Below are positions 1 to 21,265 of a stretch of DNA of 21,265 nucleotides, piece by piece. Numbering within the stretch: the stretch's first letter is position 1; each line of letters begins with the position of its first letter. The stretch comes from Priapulus caudatus (taxonomy: Eukaryota; Priapulida; Priapulimorpha; Priapulimorphida; Priapulidae). The position numbers were made by a program, and so were the translations under genes. The stretch spans positions 1 through 21,265 of the forward strand of contig NW_014577887.1 in NCBI RefSeq assembly GCF_000485595.1. The letters are read 5' to 3'. The notes beneath the pieces are model-generated. The model saw only the letters and a list, made by a program, of their open reading frames with translations. It made no database searches and was not told the DNA's origin.

Positions 1-988
1 CGGTGAGTCTCCTAGCGTGTGGCAATGACAAACTATTGCCCACTGCTATTACTGCTGGTCTGACACGTGAGTCTCCATAGGGCGAGGTGCATGACAACTA
101 TTCCCTCGGCTAAGTACTCGCTGGGCCTTGACAGCGGTGAGTCTCCTAGACGTGTGGCATGACAACATTCCCCTGCTAGTACTGCGGCCATGACACGGGA
201 GTCTCCTAGCGAGGGTGCATGACAACTATTCCCCTGTAGTACTGCTGGGTCTGACATCGGTGAGTCTCCTAGCGAGCGTGTGGCAATGAACATATTCCCC
301 TGCTAGTACTGCTGGCCTTGACACGGTGAGTGCTCCTAAGCGGTGGCATGACAACTATCCCCTCTAGTCACTTGGCTGGGCCTTTGACACGGTGAGTCTC
401 ACTAGCGTGGCTGGCATGACAACCTATTCCCGCTGCTAGGACTGCGGGACTGACACGTGAGTCTCCCTACGTGTGCAAATGACAACTATTCCCCTGCTAG
501 TAACTGACTGGCCTTGACACGGTGAGTCTCCCTATCGTGGTGGCATGACAACTATTCCCCTGCTAATGTACTCGCTGGGCCTGAACACGGTGAGTCTCTA
601 GCGCAGGTGGGCATACACTATTACCCCTGCTAGTATGCTGGTCTTGACACGGTGAGGTCTCCTAGCGAGGTGGCATGACAACTATTCCCACTGCTATGTA
701 CCTGCTGGGGCCCTTGACACGGTTGAGTCTGCCTAGCGTGGTCATGAAACAAACTAATTCCCGCTGCTAGTACTTGCGGCCTGTGACACGGTGAGTCTCC
801 TAGCGTGTGGCATGACAACTATTCCCCTGCTAGTACTGCTGGGTGCTTGACACGGAGAGTTCCTAGCGTGTGCATGACAACTATTCCCACTGCTCAGTAT
901 TGCCTGGCCTTGACAACGGTGAAGTCTCCTAGCGTGGTGGCATGAGCAACTAATTGCCCCTGCTAGTATTGGGCTGGGCCTTGACACG

Positions 989-1052
989 GTGAGTCTCCTA
1001 GCGTGGTGGCATGACAACTATTCCCCTGCTAGTACTGCTGGGCCTTGACACG
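989..1052 (+). repeat. Clean reference unit of the 64-bp satellite
   Basis: This unit matches the consensus without indels. Positions 989-1001 are the spacer gtgagtctcctag: it begins with a strong 5' splice site (ACACG before GTGAGT) and ends in a short pyrimidine stretch plus AG, like a weak 3' splice site. Positions 1002-1052 are 17 in-frame codons, phase 0 at both ends. The spacer joins directly to CGTGGTGGC. The native exon has TGGAAG before CGTGG and the spacer has CCTAG there, so AGCGTGG is shared at the duplication joint, which fits a microhomology-mediated first duplication. Thirteen nucleotides is below any spliceosomal intron length I know of, so removal of the spacer as an intron is not claimed. 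Confidence 0.9.
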
Positions 1053-4000
1053 GTGAGTCTCCTAGCGTGGTGGCATGACAACTATTCCCCTGCTAGTACT
1101 GCTGGGTCTTGACACGGTGAGTCTCCTAACGTGTGATGACAACTATTCCCACTGCTATGACTGCTGGGCCTTGACACGGTGAGTCCTCCTAGCGAGGTGG
1201 CATGAAACATTCCCCTGCTAAGATTGAGCTGGGCCTTGAACACGTGAGTCTCCCCTAGCGTGGTGGCAGACAACTATTCCACTGCTAGTAGCGCTGGGCC
1301 TTGACACGGTGAGTCTCCAGCGTGGTTGGCATGACAACTATTTCCGCAGTCTGCTAGTATGCTGGGCCTTGACACGGTGAGTCTCGTAGCGTGAGTGCAT
1401 GACAACTAATTCGCCCTGCTACGTACTGCGGACCTGACACGGGTGAGTCTCCATAGCGTGGTGCAATGACAACTAATTCCCATATCTCTGCTAGTACTCG
1501 GCTGGGCCTTGACACGGTGAAGTCTTCCAGCGAGGTGGCATGACAACTAAATTCCCCCCCTGCCTAGTATGCTGGGGCCTTGACAGCGGTGAGTCTCCTA
1601 GCGGGGTGGCATGACAACCGTATTCCCCCGCTGCTAGTACGCTGGGCCCTTGACATCGGTGATCTCCCTAGCGTGGGTGGCATGACAACTATTCCCGCTG
1701 CTAGTACTGCTGGCCCTTGACTCCTAGGATGAGTCTCCTAAGCGTGGTGGCAATGACAAGAGCGTAATTCCGCCTGCTAAGTAACTGCTGGGACCTTGAC
1801 ACGGTGAGTCCTCCTAGCGTGGTGGCATGACAACTATTCCCCTGCTAGTACTGCTGGGTCTTGACACGGTGAGTCTCCTAGCGTGTGGGCATGCACCAAC
1901 TATTCCCCTAGCTAGTACTGCTGGGTCCTTGACACGGTGAGTCTCCCTAGGCGTGGTGGCATGACAAGCTTTCCCCTGGCTAGTAACTAGCTGGGTCTTG
2001 ACAGCGGTGAGTCTCCCTAGCGAGGTGTGCAATGACAACTATTGCCCCTGCTGTACTGCGGCCCCTTGACACGGTGAGTCTCCTAGCGGTGGTGGCAAAT
2101 GACAACTATTCCCAAGACTGCCTAGTACTGCTGGGTCGACACAGGTGAGTCTCCTAGTCGTGGTGGAATGACCACTATTCCCACTAGCTAGTACTGCTGG
2201 GGTTTGACACGTGAGTCCCTCCTAGCGTGGTGGCATGACATACTTATTTCCCTGCTAGTACTGCTGGGTCCTTGACACACGGTGAAGTCTCCTAGCGTGG
2301 TGCCATGAACAACTAATTCCGCCTGCTAGTAACTGCTGGCGCTTGACACGGTGAGTCTCCTAGCGTGTGGCATGACAAACTATCCCAACTGCTAGGTACT
2401 GCTGGGTCTTGACGACGTGAGTTCTCCTAAAGGCGTGGTGGCATTGACAACTATTCCCCCTGCTAGTACTGCTGGGCCTTTGACACGGTGAGTCTCCTAG
2501 GGCGTGGTCGCATGACAATACTATCCCCTGCTAAGTACTGCTGGCCTTGACCCCGACGGTGAAGTCCTCCTTAGCGTGTGGCATGACAAAACATAATTCC
2601 CACTGCTAGTAATTGGGCTGTGGTCTGACAGCGGTGAGTCTCCGTAGCGAGGTGGCATGACAACTTATTTCCCCTGCCTAGTACTGCTGGGTCTTGACAC
2701 GGGTGAGCTACCTAAAACAGTGGTGGCATGACAACTATCCCCTGCTAGTAACTGCTGGGCCTTGACACGCTGGCGTCTCCTACGTGGTGGCATGACAACT
2801 ATTCCCGCCTGCTAGTATTGCTGGGGTCGCCTTGACACGGTGAGTCTCGCTACGAGGTGGCATGACAAACTATTTCCCCGCTAGTACTGCTGGTCTACAC
2901 GGTGAGTCTCCTAAGGCGTGGTGCCAGTGACCCAACTAACATTCCCCTGCTAGTACTGCTGGCCTTGACACCGGTGAGTCTCCTAGCGTGTGGCATGAAA
3001 CAGACTATTCCACCTGCTAGTTACTGCTGGGTCTTGAACATCGGTGAGTCTCCTACGTGGTGGCAATGACAACTATCCCGCTGCTAGTACTGCTGGGACC
3101 TTGACAACGTGAGTCTCACTAGCGTGGTGGCATGACAACTATCCCTGGCTAGTAGCTGCCTGGTCTTGACACGGTGAGTCCTAGCGTGTGAGCATGACAA
3201 CTTATTCCCTGCTATGTAACTGATGGGTCTTGCACGGTGAGTCTCGCTAGCGTGGTGGGCATGACAACTATTCCCGCTGCTAGTCACTGCTGCCTTGACA
3301 CGGTGAGTCTCCCTATGGCGTGGTGGCGATGAACAAAAAACTATGTCCCCTGCCTAGTACTTGCTGGGTCTGACACGGTGAGTCTCCTAGCGTGGTGGCA
3401 TGACAACTAATTCCCCTGCTAGTTACTGGCTGGGCCTTGGACACGGTGAATCTCCTAAGGCGTGTTGGCATGACAACTATTCCCGGCTGCCTAGTAACTG
3501 CTGGCCTTGACAACGGGGAGTCTCCGCTAGCGTGGTTGGCATGAACAACTATTCCCCCTGCTAGTACTGCTGGGCCTCTGACACGGATGAGTCTCCCTAG
3601 CGTGTGGCCATGACAAACTATTCCCCTGCTAAGTAAACTGCTGGGCGCTTGACACGGTGAGTCTGCCTAGCGTGGTGGCATGACAACTATTCCCCTGCTA
3701 GTCTGCTGCGGGTCCTTGACACGGTGAGGTCTCCTAGCGTGGTGGCTGACAACTATTCCCCTGCTAGTACTGCTGGGCCTTGACACGGTGAGTCTCTAGC
3801 GTGGTGGCATGACAACATTCCCCTGCTAGTACTCTGGGCCTTGACACGGTGAGTCTCCTAAGCGGGGTGGCATGACAACTATTCCCTGCTAGTAACTGCT
3901 GGGCCTTGAGCACGGTTGAAGTCTCGCTAGGGCGTGGTGGGCATACAACTATTCCCTGCTAGTGACTCGCTGGGCCTTGAACTACGGTGAGTCTCCCTAG

Positions 4001-5147
4001 CCGTGGTGGCATGACAACTATTCCCCTGCTATACTGCTGGGCCTTGGACACGGTGCTCTCCAGCGAGGTGGCATGACAACTATTTCCACCTGCTAAGTAC
4101 TGCTGGTCTTGACACGGTGAGATCTCCGTAGCGTGGTGGCATTGACAACTAATTCCCTGGCTAGTACTGCTGGCCTTGACACGGTGAGTCTCCTAGCGAG
4201 GTGCATGACAACTATTGCCCGCTGCTAGTATTGCTGGGCCTTGGACACGGTGAGTCTGCCTAGCGTGGTGGCATGACACATTACCCCGTGCTAGTAATTG
4301 CTGGTGTCTTGACCACGGTGAGTCCCCTAAGGTGGGTGCATGACACCTATTCCCCTGCTAGTACTGCTGGCCTTGACACGGTGAGTCTCCTAGGCGAGGT
4401 GGCATGACAACTATTCCCCCTGTAGATTGCTGGGCGCTTGACAGCGGTGAGTCTCCTAGCGTGGTGGCATGACAACTATTCCCCTGCTAGTACTGCTGGG
4501 CCTTGACACGGTGAGTCTCCTAGCGTGGGTGGGCATGAACAACATTGCCCCTGCTAGTACTGGCGGACCATTGACACGGTGAGTCTCCTAAAAAGCGTGG
4601 TTGGCATGACAACTATTCCGCCTGCTATGTAACTGCTGGGCCCTTGACACGGGAGTCTCCTAGCGTGGTGGCAATGACCAACTATTTCCCCCTGCTAGTA
4701 CTGCTGGTCCTTGAACAACGGTGGAGTCTCCATAGGCGAGGTGGCATATGACAACTATTCCCCTGCTAGTACTGCTGGGCCTTGACAACGTGAGTCTCCT
4801 AGCGGGGTGGCAATGACAAACTATTGCCCCTGCTAGTACTGGCTGGGGACCTTTGACAGTCGGTGAGTCTCCTAGCGTGTGCATGACAACTATGTCCCGC
4901 GCTAGTAGCTGCTGGGCCTTGACACGGTGAGTCCCTTCCTAGCGTGGGTGGGCATGACAAGACTATTCCCTCTGCTAGTAACTGCTGGGGCCTTTGACAC
5001 GGTGATCTCCCTAGCGTGGTGGCCATGACAACTATTCCCCAGCTGCTAGGTAACTGAGCTGGGTCTTGACAACGGTGAAGTCTTCCTAGCGTGGTGGCAT
5101 GACAACTATTCCCCAGCTGCTAGTACTGCTGGTCTTGACACAAGCGG

Positions 5148-5186
5148 TGGGGGGGGGGGGGGAGGGGGGGGGGTGGGGGGTGGGGG
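5148..5186 (+). other. G-homopolymer insertion inside the satellite
   Basis: A run of G broken by single A and T bases replaces the ...cggtga... region of one unit, after which the unit resumes at gagtctcctag. A smaller G run sits at the same place in the unit near 6063-6073. The most economical reading is long-read base-calling or polishing noise at the GGTGAG site. A real local G expansion cannot be excluded. Confidence 0.6.
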
Positions 5187-7472
5187 AGTCTCCTAGCGTG
5201 GTGGCATGACAACTATTCCCCTGCTAGTACTGCTGGGTCTTGACACGGTGAGTCTCCTAGCGTGGTGGCATGACAAAACTATTCCCACTGCTAGTAGCTG
5301 GCTGGCCTTGACAGCGGTGAGTCTGCCTAGCAGTGGTGGCATGACAACTATTCCCCTGGCTAGTACTGCGGTGCTTGACAGCGGTGAGTCTCGTAGCGTG
5401 GTGCATGACAAACTATTCCCGCTAGCAGTACTGCTGGTCTTGAACAACGGTGAGTCTCCTAAGCGTGGTGGCATGACAACTAATTCCGCTGCTAGTACTG
5501 CTGGTCTTGAACAGCGGGAGTCTCCTAGGCGTGGTGGCATGACAACTATTCCCACTGCTAGTACTGCTGGGCCTTGAACACGGTGAGGTCCTCCTAGCGT
5601 GGTGGCATGCCACACTATGTCCCGCCTGCTAGTTACTGCTGGGTCTTGACACGGTGAGTCTTCCTAGGCGTGGTGCATGACAACTATTCCCAGCTGCTAA
5701 GTACTGCTGGCCTTGACAGCGGTGAGGTCTCTTAGGCGTGGTGGGCATGGACAGACTATAACCGCTGCTATAACTGCTGGGCCCTTGAGCAGACGGTGAG
5801 TCTCCTACGTGGTGGCATGACAACTATTCCCCTGCTAGTATTGCTGGTCTTGACAGCGGTGAAGTCTCCTAGCGAGGTGGGCATGACAACTATTCCCCTG
5901 TAGTACTGCTGGTCTTGACAGCGGTGAGTGCATCCTAGCGGTGGTTGGCATTGAACAACTATTCCCGCCTGCTAGTTATGCTGGGCCTTGACCGGTGAGT
6001 CTTCCTAAGCGTGGTGGCATGACAACTAATTCCCCTTGCTAGTATTGGCTGGGGCCTTGACAGGGGGGGGCGGGAGTCCCTAGGCGATGGTGGCATGACA
6101 GACTATTCCCTGCTAGTACTGCTGGGTCTTGACACGTGAGTCCTCCTAGCGTGGTGGCATGACAACTATTCCGCCTGCTAAGTACTGCTGGGCCCTTGAA
6201 CACGGTGATGTCCCTAGGGTGTGAATACAACTATTCCCGCTGCTAGTACGCTGGTCTTGACACGGTGAGTCTCCTAGCGTGGCTGGCATGACAACTATTC
6301 CCCGGCTGCAGTACTGCTGGTGCCTTGACAACGGTGAGTCTCCTAGCGTGTGGCATGACAACTATTTCCGGCTCTGCTAGTACTGCCTGGGTCTTGGACA
6401 GCGGTGAGTCTCCTAGGCGTGGCTGGCATGACAACTATTTCCCCCCGCTGCTAGTATGCGGATTCTTGACACGGTGAGTCCTCCCCTAGGCGTGGTGGCA
6501 TGACAGACTAATTCCGCCTGCTAGTAACTGGCTGGGCGCTTGACACGGTGAGTCTCCTAGCGTTGTGGTGGCATGACAACTATTCCCCTGCTAGTAACTG
6601 CATTGTCTTGACCACGGTGAGTCTCGCATAGCGTGGTGCATGACAACTATTCCGCCTGCTAAGTACTGCTGGGCCTTGACACGGTGAGTCTCCTAGCGTG
6701 GTGGCATGACAGAACTATTCCCCTGCTAGTACTCGGCTGGGCCTTGAACATCGGGGAGTCTCCTAGCGTGGTGCATGACAACTAATTTCCCCTGCTCTAG
6801 TACTGCTGGGCGCTTGACACGGTGAGTCTCGCTAGGCGTGTGGCATGACATACTAATTCCCGCTGCTAGTTGAACTGCTGGGCCTTGACACGGTTGAGTC
6901 TCCTAGCGTGTGGCAATGAGCACTATTGCACTGCTAGTGACTGGGCTGGCCCTTGACACGGCTGAGTCTCCTAAAGCGTGGTGGCATGACAACTGATTCC
7001 GCTGCTAGTACTGGGCTGGGGCTTGACCGGTGGTCTCCTAGCGAGGTGGCTATGAACAACTATTCCCCCTGCTAGTACTGCTGGGCTACCTGTGACACGG
7101 TGAGTCTCCTAGCGGGGTGGCAATGGACAACTATTCCGCCTGAGTACTGGCTGGGCCTTGACAAACGGTGAGTCTGCACTAGCGTGGTGGCATGAAACAG
7201 ACTAATTCCCCTGCTAGTACTGCTGGGCCTGTGACACGGTGAGTCTCCCTAGGCTGTTGGTGGCCATGACAACTATTTCCCCTGCTAGTACTGCTGGGTC
7301 CCTTGACACCGGGGTGGGAAGTCTCCTTAGCGAGGTGGCATGACAACTATTACCCTGCGTAGTACTTGGCTGGGTCATTGACATCGGTGAGTCTCCCTAG
7401 CGTGGTGGCATGACAACTATTCTCGCCGCTAGTTTACTGCTGGGACCTTGACAGCGGTGAGTCTCCTAGCGT

Positions 7473-7485
7473 ATCTCTCTCAAAA
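7473..7485. other. Foldback joint with probable PacBio adapter remnant
   Basis: To the left the satellite reads in the DGK sense on the plus strand; to the right the DGK exon reads on the minus strand. The 13 nt between them are atctctctcaaaa. The first 11 (ATCTCTCTCAA) equal the start of the SMRTbell hairpin adapter, which continues AACAACAAC. An untrimmed adapter makes a read turn back on its own complement, which is the geometry seen here. The rest of the adapter is absent, so this is a remnant at best. The change from noisy to clean sequence falls at the same point. Confidence 0.7.
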
Positions 7486-7603
7486 TGTCAAGGCCCAGCA
7501 GTACTAGCAGGGGAATAGTTGTCATGCCACCACGCTTCCACTCCTCCAGCGATACTGTGCCGTCTGAATCGTAGTCAATCTCCACCATCATATCTTGTAG
7601 GAT
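7486..7603 (-). CDS. Dgk: Type I diacylglycerol kinase, EF-hand 2 exon (3' end disrupted)
   Basis: The exon begins after an AG at 7604-7605 (tgtttgccgtatag, a modest 3' splice site) in phase 0. It reads [20 protein letters not shown] and continues [19 protein letters not shown], 39 codons. The EF-hand 2 calcium loop [12 protein letters not shown] has Asp at 1, 3 and 5, Gly at 6 and Glu at 12, so it should bind calcium. The following [14 protein letters not shown] segment is a hallmark of type I DGKs and joins the EF-hands to the first C1 domain. In satellite units the exon runs on to GLDT and the donor gtgagt. Here the sequence leaves that path after GACA (7486) and enters the foldback joint, so the native donor is missing. 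The upstream intron (7604-7813) is only 210 nt and shows nothing else. Confidence 0.94.
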
Positions 7604-7813: not shown

Positions 7814-7888
7814 CGGTCGCAGCTCTGTCACATCCCAACCAAGATATTCAGCTACGTTCATCATTTGGTTCACTATGCAATCTAATTC
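7814..7888 (-). CDS. Dgk: Type I diacylglycerol kinase, exon between the two EF-hand loops
   Basis: This is a 75-nt, 25-codon exon, phase 0 at both ends. It starts after a good acceptor (aatttctcag) and ends at a strong donor (CCG before gtaagttg). It reads [20 protein letters not shown] followed by TELRP. This is the exiting helix of EF-hand 1 and the entering helix of EF-hand 2 in type I DGKs, whose family pattern here is QMM.VAEYL.WD.TEL.P. Its first residue, Glu, supplies position 12 of the EF1 loop begun in the exon at 9519-9568, so the calcium site is split by an intron. Both neighbours join it in frame. Calcium binding to these EF-hands relieves autoinhibition of the kinase, which converts diacylglycerol to phosphatidic acid at membranes. 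Confidence 0.96.
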
Positions 7889-8668: not shown

Positions 8669-8818
8669 GCACTACGTCACGCAGTCAGCTGGCAGGAGTC
8701 CAGTCATCGCTATTGCTCGCACTACGTCACGCAGTCAGCTGGCAGGAGGCCAGTCATCGCTATTGCTCGCACTACGTCACGCAGTCAGCTGGCAGGAGTC
8801 CAGTCATCGCTATTGCTC
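8669..8818 (+). repeat. Tandem triplicate, 50-bp unit
   Basis: Three head-to-tail copies start at 8669, 8719 and 8769 with gcactacgtcacgcagtcag. Copies 1 and 3 look identical, and copy 2 has one T-to-G change (ggagtcc to ggaggcc). The near-identity suggests a young duplication. It lies in the DGK intron and has no similarity to the 64-bp satellite. Each unit carries tacgtcac, close to a CRE half-site, but no regulatory claim is made. Confidence 0.95.
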
Positions 8819-9518: not shown

Positions 9519-9568
9519 TGTGTTGTCTAAGATACCGTTCCCGTCTGTGTCATATAACCGGAACATAA
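9519..9568 (-). CDS. Dgk: Type I diacylglycerol kinase, EF-hand 1 loop micro-exon
   Basis: A 50-nt exon between acceptor acatttcag and donor ACA/gtaagtg. It starts with two bases (TT) that complete a Phe codon begun by the last base of the exon at 10033-10218, then reads MFRLYDTDGNGILDNT and ends in phase 0. DTDGNGILDNT is positions 1-11 of a canonical EF-hand loop (Asp1, Asp3, Asn5, Gly6, Asp9); the Glu at position 12 comes from the next exon. FMFRLYD is the conserved lead-in of type I DGKs. The short length hides it from open-frame searches. Phase, splice sites and family match all agree. Confidence 0.95.
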
Positions 9569-10032: not shown

Positions 10033-10218
10033 ATTCCAACTTGTCCTCAGGTCTAGCACCTTCGAGAAGGGACAGGTAGCAAACGATGTCCTTGAGAGGC
10101 ACTCTTGAAGTATATATGTCTATTATGCTGCTAGCCTTTGACAGCTTGCTGCTCTCAGAGTGTGACTTGAGCAGAGACGACGCTGACCTCTTGACCCACG
10201 TGACGTCATCTGAGTGGC
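10033..10218 (-). CDS. Dgk: Type I diacylglycerol kinase, linker end and EF-hand 1 entering helix
   Basis: A 186-nt exon starting after acceptor aactacattgcag and ending at the strong donor GAAT/gtaagtacag. The first two bases (GC) complete a codon from the preceding exon. It begins HSDDVTWVKRSASSLLKSHS, a Ser/Lys-rich low-conservation linker, and ends VPLKDIVCYLSLLEGARPED plus KLE. The last base T starts the Phe codon finished by the next exon. LKDIVCYLSLLE.GRPEDKLEFMF is a signature stretch of type I DGKs between the recoverin-homology domain and EF-hand 1; here Ala replaces the usual second Gly or Arg. Splice phases on both sides agree with the neighbouring exons. The in-frame ATG at 10238-10240 lies upstream of the acceptor and is probably intronic. 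Confidence 0.95.
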
Positions 10219-13268: not shown

Positions 13269-13580
13269 TGACGACGCCGACGACAACGATGACGACGACC
13301 ACCACCGCCCACGCCACCGCCACCACCACCACCACCGCCACCGCCACCACAACCGCCACCGCCACGGCCACCGCCACTGCCACCGCCACGGCCACCAACA
13401 CCGCCACCAAAACCGCCACCAACATCGCCACGGCCACGACCACGGCGACGGCCACCAACACCGCCACCGCCACCAACACCGCCACCGCCACCAACACCGC
13501 CACCGCCACCGCCACCGCCACCGCCACCGTCACCGCCACCGCTACCGCCACCGCCACCACCACCGTCACCGTCACCGTCC

Positions 13581-13623
<43 letters not shown>

Positions 13624-13848
13624 CACTACTACTACTACTACTACAACTACTACTACTACTGCTACTACTACTACTACTACTACTACTAGTTCTTCTTCTT
13701 CTTCTTCTTCTTCTTCTTCTTCTTCTTCTTCTTCTTCTTCTTCTTCTTCTACTTCTTCTTCTACTACTACTACTACTACTACTACGACGACGACGACGTC
13801 GACGACGACGACAACGACGACGATGACGATTACTACTGCTGCCGCTGC
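13269..13848 (+). repeat. Compound trinucleotide microsatellite block
   Basis: Successive 3-bp repeat types follow one another: GAC/CAC at the start, a long CCACCG-type stretch to about 13580, (CTA)n at 13581-13688, (TTC)n at 13690-13771 with a CTA interruption, (CTA)n again to about 13784, (ACG)n to about 13827, then GCT/GCC. Triplet repeats without stop triplets stay open in several frames. That explains the overlapping 284-, 259- and 227-codon frames of poly-Val/Ala/Glu, poly-Thr/Ser and poly-Gly/Ser/Arg here. No flanking sequence supports any of them as a protein. The block lies between DGK exons, in an intron. Confidence 0.95.
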
Positions 13849-14068
13849 TAGCGCGTTTACCGGAATAGTACATAACAGAAGGCGGAATATAGTGAAAACA
13901 GCATGCATAAATGATGCGAAAAGAACATGTATTGAGCATTGCAGAAGTCTACCAGGTTTAACGAGGGCGCAATCCAAAGTACAGTAGACAACAATCATGC
14001 TGATGACGTAGTCAGCCACGCTATCGCGCGACAACACCGATAATGGCGACAACGACCGTCATAGTTAC

Positions 14069-14278
14069 CGTTCTGCGTCAACACTGAATTATTAGATTTC
14101 TTGGAAGAGTTTCTCGAGTGGTTTGATGGAATGGGTGACGACTCTGCCGACTTCGCGTCGCTAACTACCTGGCAGTCGGTTCGATGGATGCTCATCGAAG
14201 GATGCGTGGAACTGGAGAAGCTGCCTAGAATCCATAACCAAGGCAGCGCACCACCATCACATCTCGGCACAGAACTCT
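14069..14278 (-). CDS. Candidate DGK serine-rich linker exon
   Basis: A minus-strand open frame bounded by an acceptor-like sequence (ggttttcatggcag, exon starts AGAGTTCT) and a donor-like sequence (AACG/gtaactatg). This gives 210 nt, phase 1 at both ends, so it fits between the candidate exon at 15527-15784 and the exon at 10033-10218 without shifting the frame. It would encode about 69 residues including SAESSPIPSNHSRNSSKKSN, a low-complexity Ser/Asn segment of the kind seen in DGK linkers. There is no conserved domain to confirm it. The opposite strand also has an open frame (14101-14409), so coding status is uncertain. It could be an alternative or false exon. Confidence 0.4.
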
Positions 14279-15300: not shown

Positions 15301-15526
15301 GAGGTTGATATAATTATATTGTATCATATAATATTATTGAACAGTATCTAATTTCTGAAGCGGCCAAAATGATCTCTAAACAAAAACACAGTCTGTTAGA
15401 GTATTAGTTATAATTTTTAGTTAGTATTGTAGGACAGAAGGCACAATATTACGGTAGCGTTATCTATCTAATCAAAAATGTTTGAACAGGCGTGGTGTAA
15501 TGCTCCAACCGGAGGGGTGTTAGTAC
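14279..15526 (-). other. Intronic DNA with minor simple repeats
   Basis: No gene recognised. It contains an impure CACGCA/GCACAC stretch at about 14480-14556 and an (AC)n(AT)n tract at 15269-15300. The minus-strand frames at 14319-14561 and 14686-14886 are unrecognised and partly repeat-derived. Confidence 0.6.
15269..15300. repeat. (AC)n(AT)n microsatellite
   Basis: A short acacacac run continues into a pure AT run of about 11 units. It lies in the DGK intron. Confidence 0.85.
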
Positions 15527-15784
15527 CTGCGCGCCCCTGGCTGCCCGTCTCAGAGCCGGCTGAACCATCGTGTTTTCCTATGTGACCAAGCATGTGTATC
15601 TTCTCCGTCAGTCCGTGAAGCTTTTCCGACATACTTGTATGCTGGGACTTCGGTTCGGACTTGTCGAGCAGGCCGTGACCCCCGTGACCTGCATCGATGA
15701 CGACTTTGTTCTCGTTATGCGCCGTGATTGGTGCGCACATCGTCTGCTGCGTTGCTACGGCAACCTCCTTTATCAGCTCTTTAC
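15527..15784 (-). CDS. Candidate DGK linker exon
   Basis: A 128-codon minus-strand open frame (15468-15854) contains a segment bounded by a good acceptor (cacacgcgttttgcag/GTAAAGAG) and a weaker donor (GCGCAG/gtactaac). This gives 258 nt, phase 1 in and phase 1 out, which matches the phase-1 end of the exon at 19545-19695 and the phase-1 start of the exon at 10033-10218. It would encode 85 codons beginning KELIKEVAVATQQTMCAPIT, with a later stretch SMSEKLHGLTEKIHMLGHIG that could form an amphipathic helix, and a Gly/Ser-rich end. The composition looks coding and it sits where type I DGKs have a variable linker between the DGK_N domain and EF-hand 1. I recognise no homologous domain, and the donor lacks the usual G at +5, so alternative splicing or a false exon is possible. 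Confidence 0.55.
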
Positions 15785-16556: not shown

Positions 16557-17572
16557 ATTAAGGATACCGCTACCCCTGAGTATGCTAAAATGGGACGTGT
16601 TCGATCCTAGCATAATATTCTAACGACCATGTAACAAAATCGTACTTACTCGGATACTGACACTGCAATATAAACAGTGGTAATGGTGACACCAGCCTTT
16701 AGTGATTGGTTAGGAACGTCTGGGTATATGACAACTCCATAGCTACGCGGACTGTCATACAGTTCATACTACTTACTCGTGGCCGCCGTGTGGATACAGT
16801 AGTAACCGCCGTATACGTTTTAAAATATAGGTCTATTCTAAGACTACGTGTATTAAAGTATTTATTCCATTATGTAGGTATATGGCTGATTCTTTACCAA
16901 TAAAATACAATACAATAAAATAATATAATACAAGGAAGGAGCTCTGTGTAAGGGAATTAACAACTGCCAGTAATGCGCAAACTGAGTGCTCATTGCCATA
17001 ACAGCAACAATAACGTGTTTGCAGGCTTGTTTGCAATGTCTAATAAATATGTTGTAACATATTTGCTTATTCACTTGTTTCCCATGTAAACTAGAGTAAC
17101 GGAATCAAACTGTTCTGTTTATAAAAATTCAATATTTTAAATATTACCGACAACATACTGAATCCAGTTTTTTTTTAATGCAACTTGCTAAACCACAAAG
17201 GGGATCAGTTTATTTCCAAAGCTCTTTATCCCTTATACGATAAGCTCCTGCATTAAAATCTATTATGATGCATTTGTGCCCCGCTGTGTGAAAGATTCCT
17301 CATTTGCGCAAAAACTAACTGCATTATTCAGTCTTCTTAGCCATGTAAGACAAACAGATCTGTATCCACTTATAAACTTTGTCTCTCATAACTAGACCAA
17401 CCGGCAAAGTAGCTTGCTTCTTTTGAACAGTGGTTATTATGCTTGTAAACGTTATCCAAGCTCATAAATTCAGTGTATAGGCTACCGACATACAGTACAT
17501 ACACATGCAATTGAATCATATGCAAGAAATATTAAAATAATATGAATTTAATATATAATATTATAAAAATTG
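15785..17572 (-). other. Intronic DNA, no recognised gene
   Basis: About 1.8 kb. Around 15920-16240 a loose motif resembling gactcgccga or ctagccgagagtcgg recurs several times without a clear period. A CATATA/GT microsatellite lies at 16487-16553. The short frames at 16316-16613 come from it. No exon is seen. Confidence 0.6.
16487..16553 (+). repeat. (CATATA)n-(GCGT/GT)n microsatellite
   Basis: Three to four catata units, then cgtgcgtgcgtg, then a pure GT run to 16553. Confidence 0.9.
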
Positions 17573-17999
17573 TTAAAGCCGCACAATGCGCATCCAAACG
17601 CTAATTTATCCAGTACTAGACTAGCAAATACTTCGTGTCATGCATAATCACACTACCTTATGACAAAATAAACTCTAGTTCCTCCCATTTCACTGCGCGT
17701 TGTCTTATAAAAGGTATTTGAAAATACCTCCAATGTTGTTCAAATTCTCCGATGTTGTTGACACTTCCCTGCCAAGCAACCGTACAGCGGTGCTGCGGTA
17801 CAGCGGTACGGGTGTAGCAAAGAGAAAAACATGTGACGTCACCTCACCACTTCGAGGCTAAATTGTTTGGCAAACGCAGTGAAATGGGAGGAACTAGAGT
17901 TTATTTTGTCATAAGGTAGTGTGATTATGCATGGCACGAAGTATTTGCTAGTCTAGTACTGGAGAAATTAGCGTTTGGATGCGCATAGTGCGGCTTTAA
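17573..17999. mobile_element. 427-bp foldback/MITE-like element bounded by TTAA
   Basis: Two 125-bp arms, 17573-17697 and 17875-17999, are reverse complements with only three mismatches (about 98 percent). The similarity stops exactly at TTAA on both outer ends: left ttaaagccgcac, right gtgcggctttaa. TTAA is the target-site duplication of the piggyBac superfamily, so this could be a non-autonomous piggyBac-type MITE. However, the terminus AGCCGCAC lacks the CCC start usual for that family, and because TTAA is its own complement it could simply be the end of the arms. The 177-bp centre has no open frame of note; it contains a small hairpin (aggtatt...aatacct near 17711-17728) and a tgacgtca palindrome. 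High arm identity suggests recent insertion or recent arm conversion. It lies in the DGK intron. Confidence 0.8.
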
Positions 18000-19544
18000 T
18001 GATTTCTTTTTCTATTTTCCCTGACTACGGGTATGCAGGAAATTCATAAATTTAGCTAAAAGACACCTAGATCAAAGTGTGAATATAATTATACAGTTCC
18101 TTCGTGAGTTGTAGTTGGGGCTTTCAGACAAGGCTGCGATCACATTACTGCCTCGCCATGGTGACGAACACCAGTTTTAACAAAATTCAGAATTTATGTC
18201 TTTAAAGTACCAGCAGTGTCATGTGCGAGTGGATGAGAAACGGCGCTTGCATCGTATACTAAAAACAGTAATTTAAAATTTTGCATATACAGTCTCCAAG
18301 CTGACATTATATTGACGAAATTATTACCATTTATGCAAACTGATAACATATTTAACCACCTACAAAGAAACATTGCATATTTCACAGTTGATAAATATCT
18401 TGTAGCATTAGTTTAAAAAAACAAAAGGTTTCAAAACTTGTTTATCAATTCGTCATATAGTCCATTGGCCTCTGCTTTTCACGATATAGTTCACGCATTC
18501 AAGTCAAATCCTGTAAGTTAAAATGCTCATGCTTTGTCTGCACACTCTCCAATATCAAGTGATACCGTTGTAGGCCTACATCTATTGACTGATTTAGTTC
18601 TTCAAAATAGTGCTGCAATGTAATTAACTTTCTGCATAGGTAGGCACCAACTTCCTACGAGCCTTCTACTCCTAATACCTTTCCTAACCCTGCAGTGCCA
18701 GTACTAGTGGACGTGGCTACGTGTTCTTAATTGTTTACTTCGACAGCGACGGGGGTCTTCGCAACGATACTCCTTTACTATGACGTGTTAAGAAGACAAA
18801 ATTTGAACGAGTAACGTCATTAATAAGCGCTCCAATCGGCGACGGAAAACAATAGGCAAAATGCCGAAGCGAACTTGATTGTCAAATTGATTTCTGCACT
18901 CCCGTAATGCCTAGATGAGCTACGAATACTATATCTCAGCCTAGGATTGTCTTAGAGGCAAGCGGTGGGTTTTGTTATAGCGATGAAAGAACGCTGCTTA
19001 ATTCAATAATACCAACTAATTCCAGACGTGCAATTAAAATAGAATCATTGTACCGTAAACAGTTTTCCCGTTTTCCCGTTGTACACTCTATGTATTATTA
19101 GATTTTGACGGTATTTATGTTGTTTAGAGATGTAACGTTCGGGGTGTTGTCATAACATGGTTCATGCTAATACGAGCCATATAACTCTAATTTTTTGCCA
19201 TAACCTTTTGATTGTTTCCGCCGATGCTATCCTCCGCTACCTTTAAGCTCTTGTGTCTCCAACAATTAAGACAGCAGCAAGAACACGCAGTAAGAGAAGA
19301 CAATGCACACACACACGGTCGCCACGAGCGTGCTGTATGCATATACACACTGCCTTACCGCTATACACACTGCACATATGCATATACACACTGCCTTGTT
19401 GCTATCGGGGAAAGCCCCCACGGGAACGTTCGACACATCATGTCACATGGGTGTACGAGAAAAAGACGACAATGCATTTCTTTCGTAAATCGCTTGTCAA
19501 TTAATAATTGCTCGCTAGCATCTGCAAACGCGAACGCTACCCAC
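18000..19544 (-). other. Intronic DNA, no recognised gene
   Basis: About 1.5 kb without a recognisable exon. Overlapping frames at 19212-19550 (plus strand) cover a 41-bp partial duplication (gcatatacacactgcctt at 19339 and 19380) and do not resemble a protein. The 18194-18385 minus frame is unrecognised. Confidence 0.6.
19339..19405 (+). repeat. 41-bp imperfect duplication
   Basis: gcatatacacactgcctt recurs at an offset of 41 bp (19339 and 19380), with a third partial ctatacacactgc between them, giving roughly 1.6 copies. Confidence 0.7.
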
Positions 19545-19695
19545 CTCTGAACTCTTCGAGCTGCTTCTGCTGCATGATCTGACTGTGCTGATGTTTCTTA
19601 ATGAATGAGAGAAAGAGATGCTGGCACAGGTCCGTCGGCACGTCCACCTCCAGGTATGTGTCCATGAACAGTTTAAAGCCCTCATAGTCAATATG
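19545..19695 (-). CDS. Dgk: Type I diacylglycerol kinase, N-terminal DGK_N (recoverin-homology) exon
   Basis: A 151-nt exon that starts in phase 0 after a strong acceptor (cttctgtttgctccag/CATATTGAC) and ends AGAG/gtgggtag in phase 1. It encodes 50 codons beginning HIDYEGFKLFMDTYLEVDVP and then TDLCQHLFLSFIKKHQHSQI. The core I.FEGFKLFM..YLE...P..L..HLF.SF is the conserved heart of the DGK_N domain that precedes the EF-hands in DGK alpha, beta and gamma, which is why I place the gene in type I. The C-terminal MQQKQLEEFR leads into the variable linker. An open frame continues upstream of the acceptor, but that part is translated intron and (TG)n repeat. The exons carrying the start codon should lie to the right, probably outside the window. 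The enzyme is cytosolic and membrane-recruited, phosphorylating diacylglycerol. Confidence 0.95.
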
Positions 19696-19755
19696 CTGGA
19701 GCAAACAGAAGTCGGCCATGTAAGCTTCGAAAAATGGAGAAGACAGCTTGCTAGG

Positions 19756-20792: not shown

Positions 20793-20866
20793 CTAGCTCT
20801 CAAACTATAGCCCTTCGCTCTGACACAGGCCTGAGGCAGAGCGATGGGCTATAGTTCTAGAGCTAG
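20793..20866. repeat. Imperfect inverted repeat, about 30-bp arms
   Basis: Arms 20793-20822 and 20837-20866 are near reverse complements around a 14-nt loop (ctagctct...gctctg against cagagc...agagctag). The right arm is also part of the direct repeat with 21031-21074. Confidence 0.8.
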
Positions 20867-20868
20867 GC
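20825..20868 (+). repeat. 44-bp dispersed repeat, copy 1
   Basis: Matches 21031-21074 at 41 of 44 positions, with the shared core gggctatagttctagagct. The same core occurs inverted at 20793-20822. Confidence 0.85.
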
Positions 20869-21030: not shown

Positions 21031-21074
21031 ACAGGCATGAGGCAGAGGGAAGGGCTATAGTTCTAGAGCTAGGC
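21031..21074 (+). repeat. 44-bp dispersed repeat, copy 2
   Basis: Second direct copy of the 20825-20868 sequence, three substitutions apart, 206 bp downstream and just before the hexamer array. Confidence 0.85.
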
Positions 21075-21094: not shown

Positions 21095-21265
21095 CATCTA
21101 CCTCTACATCTACCTCTACCTCTACCTCTACCTCTACCTCTACCTCTACCTCTACCTCTACCTCTACCTCTACCTCTACCTCTACCTCTACCTCTACATC
21201 TACCTCTACCTCTACCTCTACCTCTACCTCTACCTCTACCTCTACCTCTACCTCTACCTCTACCT
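21095..21265 (+). repeat. (CCTCTA)n hexanucleotide array, open at the window edge
   Basis: About 28 units of CCTCTA run to the last base. CATCTA variant units occur at 21095, 21107 and near 21196. The motif differs from the metazoan telomere repeat (CCCTAA), so it is read as a microsatellite. Confidence 0.95.

Follow-up and report, generated by a model that had tools for sequence, protein, structure and literature searches.

The start of this Priapulus caudatus contig raises the question of whether the end of a coding exon, together with its 5' splice site, has been multiplied into a kilobase-scale tandem array. The window analyzed here comprises the first 21,265 of 139,543 contig bases, so the array, which occupies positions 1 to 7472 of the plus strand, is a contig end. 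In this stretch, TRF reports 110.3 copies (76% match, 16% indel), and a wraparound alignment gives 110.3 copies of a 64-nt unit in head-to-tail arrangement. Each unit consists of 51 nt of exon end and 13 nt that carry a splice donor: the codons of the unit specify 17 residues and are followed by GTGAGT, and in the remaining 13 nt an ACG codon is completed, after which GTGAGTCTCCT follows. The 51 nt are identical to positions 7486 to 7536 on the minus strand (100%, query 14-64), which are the last 51 nt of the adjacent diacylglycerol kinase (DGK) exon with EF-hand 2 (7486 to 7603, minus strand). The first-pass annotation had described the unit as a 17-codon stretch plus GTGAGT, had recognized the same stretch at the end of a DGK EF-hand exon, and had proposed that this exon end and its donor seeded the array. 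The description is confirmed in the unit sequence, the match to the exon holds at 51/51 nt, and the proposed seeding is supported by this identity.

The assignment of the gene to the DGK family follows from Pfam matches (DAG_kinase_N, 3.6e-25, plus EF hands), from the best solved relative (DGK alpha, 6iie), and from a protein search, in which the best match is a predicted P. caudatus DGK 1-like protein (P0001) among the best 120 of 164 proteins. Residues 54-304 and 306-391 of P0001 are found exactly in seven minus-strand stretches of the window: the coding blocks at 19543-19698, 15525-15782, 14067-14222, 10034-10216, 9519-9566, and 7814-7888, each read exactly from the window, and a last stretch at 7469-7603 that encodes residues 347-391. 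The catalytic part is absent from P0001. A comparison with Rfam gave no match at gathering score. Other features of the window include a foldback element at 17567-18005 (131-nt inverted arms, 96% complementary, 177 nt apart), which looks like a short DNA transposon, an intronic compound run of ACCGCC, CTA, and ACG repeats at 13298-13829, and two direct 44-nt copies, 93% alike, at 20825-20868 and 21031-21074. About 28 copies of TCTACC (21097-21265) close the window, and the contig reads N directly thereafter.

The sequence quality of the array is that of an uncorrected read. Only 2 of about 110 units are letter-perfect. Relative to the unit, the array contains 8.7% insertions, 2.8% deletions, and 1.9% substitutions, with ranges across 500-base bins of 5.1 to 11.4%, 1.2 to 6.2%, and 0.4 to 5.4%, respectively, and 355 of the 612 insertions are equal to the next base. 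These values agree with the insertion-dominated error of about 15% that is typical of raw long-read sequence, and they are close to the 9% insertions, 4% deletions, and 2% mismatches of the simulated PacBio RS-like reads in the PBJelly paper (PMC3504050). This profile fits a PacBio origin, which it does not prove. The unit-to-unit differences are mostly read noise, and a G-rich run at 5149-5186 (plus strand) is probably noise as well. Three 50-nt tandem copies at 8669-8818 of the same window are 98-100% alike, clean where the array is noisy. The PBJelly paper also describes the extension of contig flanks, the assembly of several reads per gap, and the retention of an adapter in about 1% of reads (PMC3504050); software of this type was presumably used to extend the P. 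caudatus assembly.

The starts of 34 other contigs served as controls, of which 26 begin with N and 8 are readable. Long noisy arrays are present at the start of three of these eight (C660, C760, and C831) and a short noisy tract at the start of C834; the starts of the remaining readable contigs, C960, C832, C835, and C836, have no noisy array. The array of C831 changes strand internally at about 1000-1013 without an adapter remnant and is followed by a long G run (piece L045, about 1567-1611), and both features look like raw-read faults. This G run resembles that at 5149-5186 of the array studied here. The C760 array has 13.4% insertions and 5.9% deletions against one trial unit and 5.8% insertions and 12.6% deletions against another, and the C660 array fits its trial unit poorly, so the controls show noise rather than an identical profile. 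An array in C810, located away from the contig end and beside masked sequence, has 0.3% insertions and zero deletions. By eye, C760 (piece L026, about 2155-2200) and C831 (piece L045, about 1380-1440) have a common array type and a similar flank, CTACTAGTACTACTCT, and these two contig ends may therefore represent the same locus twice.

As assembled, the array and the exon meet in opposite orientation: the sense of the gene is read on the plus strand in the array and on the minus strand in the exon. In the latter direction, the exon reads CTTGACA-TTTTGAGAGAGAT and then enters the reverse complement of the array; it has no splice donor here and instead continues into TTTTGAGAGAGAT. Positions 7473 to 7485 belong to neither the array nor the exon, and on the plus strand ATCTCTCTCAA (7473-7483) is identical in 11 of 11 nt to the start of the SMRTbell adapter as printed in PMC12745853. 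With one mismatch allowed, this 11-mer occurs once in the window, and at least one match is obtained in 21 of 100 shuffles, so the weight of the match lies in its position at the junction. Among 88,954 readable bases of the genome, the exact 11-mer is found only at 7473-7483, and the start of the other adapter strand is found once, in C834. The phase of the repeat is informative as well: the array starts at unit position 51, the exon ends at unit position 50, an agreement expected by chance once in 64, and base 1 of the window is exactly the unit base that is due after the exon. When positions 1 to 7485 are reversed, exon and array therefore meet with no base missing, and the adapter comes to lie at the free end. 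Since base 1 continues the phase of the exon, the extension was probably attached without reverse-complementing. The 7.5-kb extension is therefore probably in the wrong orientation, and the true orientation of the array would be direct, in the same sense as the exon. This false junction is also the reason that P0001 ends in ILREIR (residues 386-391), which is encoded across it and partly by adapter-like sequence. The assembled arrangement, previously taken at face value, is not supported, with an inverted array, a missing exon donor, and an adapter match at 7473-7483. Given the raw-read quality, the contig end, and the wrong orientation, the true transition from exon to array is not what the window displays.

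Beneath this noise, the array looks like real DNA. Pair-HMM likelihoods on 109 units support the substitutions 43C>T (LR 115, about 35% of units), 4T>A (LR 49, about 16%), and 35C>T (LR 20, about 10%), with weaker support for 4T>G (LR 7.6); the largest LRs in error-only simulations (n = 8), which model random errors and not context-dependent ones, are 3.0 to 9.3. Two further candidates at position 25, C>G (LR 21) and C>A (LR 8.7), have no lag-48 support and were treated as miscalls of a CCCC run, and 42G>T (LR 39.5) was treated as a shadow of 43C>T. By alignment, the order of variants in units 17-60 (1128-4129, plus strand) recurs in units 64-108 (4330-7398, plus strand) at an offset of 47 and then 48 units. 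The score of this correspondence is 42.7, where 150 permutations average 7.6 and reach 11.4 at most, and 19 of 24 variant-holding unit pairs are identical between the blocks. Across 44 matched pairs, 22 substitution calls are present in both units (43C>T 12, 4T>A 4, 35C>T 3, 4T>G 2, and 54T>G 1) versus 3-9 at ten control offsets, whereas replicated insertions (25 versus 8-27) and deletions (14 versus 2-23) are at control level. The substitutions were therefore present in the template, and the indels represent noise. In a three-substitution test, the repeat was matched in 0 of 3000 trials when units were permuted together, with a value of 0.0007 when sites were permuted apart; when six alleles were tested jointly, the doubtful position 25 among them, the corrected p was 0.008. 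Taken singly at lag 48, 4T>A is not significant (p 0.15) and 4T>G has a p of 0.07. Many evolved arrays are expected to share variants between near neighbors. Across 101 features and lags 1-24, no clear excess of such sharing is seen (z of -1.9 at lag 1; smallest p 0.037, at lag 11), and the block repeat surfaced only in a scan of longer lags. Several features, 43C>T among them (p 0.004), give signals at lag 3, and a peak at lag 24 is seen for 35C>T (5 pairs versus 0.65 expected).

Taken together, we consider it likely that P. caudatus has a real exon-derived array and that a broken contig was extended by a misoriented raw read. The first idea raised by the error profile was an in vitro artifact, in which a polymerase copied one 64-nt template, by way of a tiny circle or slippage at a fragment end, and the genome has one copy. 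Raw-read quality, an adapter at the end, and variants that are not shared from neighbor to neighbor would suit such an origin, but it predicts random errors only, and three sites recur far above simulation. The repetition of the variant order over 44 units argues further against copying of one template; on this ground the idea was dropped, and it is now judged very unlikely. The number of copies is a separate matter. It is possible, as a tentative reading, that the array is real and that 64 rather than 110 units were sampled, with units 64-108 being a second read or passage over units 17-60 that was joined in phase by the extension step. This would explain why the order of variants recurs in the second block and the indels do not, and it is compatible with the assembly of multiple reads per gap in the PBJelly paper (PMC3504050). 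The shift in offset from 47 to 48 within the block would be more natural for a real duplication, although a slip in segmentation could mimic it, and the unit phase is unbroken. A minimum of about 64 units is therefore the firm figure, as the noisy sequence of units 64-108 may cover the same stretch a second time.

In the searchable part of the 385-Mb assembly (2952 contigs), all 107 matches to the 64-mer (E <= 0.001), a lower bound that includes the exon copy, since masked stretches read N, lie on the contig of the array. A real exon-derived array could nevertheless lie elsewhere in the genome, from which a read was misplaced through its match to the last 51 nt of the contig; such an alignment would keep the phase, and the masked stretches of the assembly cannot be searched. 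Against this origin, no other contig in the searchable part carries the 64-mer, and the published PBJelly program, if that was indeed the one used here, requires about 200 aligned bases (PMC3504050), which makes misplacement improbable. That the clean sequence ends inside the first unit favors an array beside the exon. Acceptance of the layout as assembled, namely a head-to-head inverted array beside the exon, a native ATCTCTCTCAAAA, and a broken gene copy, would match the assembly as given, but it requires that an adapter 11-mer at the junction, a 1-in-64 phase, and raw-read quality confined to the array all arose by chance, and we regard it as highly implausible.

These results also define what can be kept of the earlier claims about the extent and class of the array. 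Its many copies in template DNA are borne out by the recurrent substitutions, the repeated order, and the replicated calls relative to error-only simulations. About 110-fold amplification describes the sequence as assembled, with the firm minimum at about 64 units. A location at the exon-intron boundary is the likely one; as assembled, the array is inverted, and its true junction with the exon is not seen in the window. The search of the assembly with the 64-mer, which the first-pass annotation had proposed, indicates that it is private to this contig (107/107 matches, searchable part), and the refuting case of a genome-wide satellite without an exon match was not found in the searchable assembly. 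The term "satellite" overstates the case, as the array has no matches on other contigs of the searchable assembly and is, on present evidence, best classed as a minisatellite confined to one locus, unusual in its origin and situated in a contig end that was misassembled.

Most likely, then, the exon is directly continued in P. caudatus by a minisatellite that is private to this locus and comprises about 64 units or more. In the proposed model, the array would start within the DGK EF-hand exon, at its final 51 nt, and run in the sense of the exon into the following intron, each unit comprising the exon end, GTGAGT, and a small number of bases from the intron. Its origin was probably a short duplication in tandem where exon and intron meet, which unequal exchange then probably enlarged, and it would be present in germline DNA next to the exon. 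The contig would have broken where the array begins and been extended with raw PacBio sequence that was attached without reverse-complementing, such that the adapter end now abuts the exon. Re-oriented, the junction would read exon ...CTTGACA and then CGGTGAGTCTCC.

Such an arrangement would have consequences for splicing. A reading frame that continues beyond the first donor stays open for 19 codons and then hits a stop ahead of the next donor, and normal DGK mRNA would therefore need the first donor. The unit contains CTCCTAG before CGT, an acceptor-like motif, but ordinary splicing requires an intron longer than the 13 nt available here. Because each 51-nt (17-codon) stretch is preceded by this motif, the splicing machinery could skip units, include them as in-frame mini-exons, or be drawn to them as decoys. 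There is a slim chance that transcription of this conserved gene passes through an array of nearly identical splice donors, dozens to more than 100 in number. Each of the four coding changes supported by replicates (4T>A, 4T>G, 35C>T, and 43C>T) is synonymous, a property of 50 among the 192 changes possible in the unit, and the chance of an all-synonymous set is about 0.005 for four changes or 0.018 for three sites. Constraint on the copies at the level of the protein, or ongoing exchange with the working exon, would be in keeping with this outcome, which, with so few changes, is only a hint. The fifth replicated change, 54T>G, removes the GT of the donor and is supported in about 4 units.

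If confirmed, the locus would show a natural amplification, dozens-fold or more, of an exon end and its 5' splice site within a conserved gene, and it would lend itself to testing how splicing chooses the first among many near-identical donors. It is also a warning, in that an uncorrected and apparently wrong-way read extension truncated an annotated protein. The literature titles and abstract openings surveyed describe no kilobase array of an exon end and donor, which is weak evidence of absence. Among known systems, the array shares with satellite DNA a long homogeneous tandem structure and a possible higher-order block, but it lies on one contig only (searchable part) and has no sign of many loci or heterochromatin. 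Its contig-end position, raw error profile, and SMRTbell adapter remnant are those of a PBJelly-type raw long-read extension, although, unlike the extension described in the PBJelly paper (PMC3504050), it is probably attached on the wrong strand. The array is similar to minisatellites or VNTRs in its unit of tens of nucleotides (roughly 10-100 nt for the class), head-to-tail order, kilobase scale, and single locus, as well as in its interspersed variant units and repeated block order. It differs from these in that the unit contains the exon end and 5' splice site of a conserved gene.
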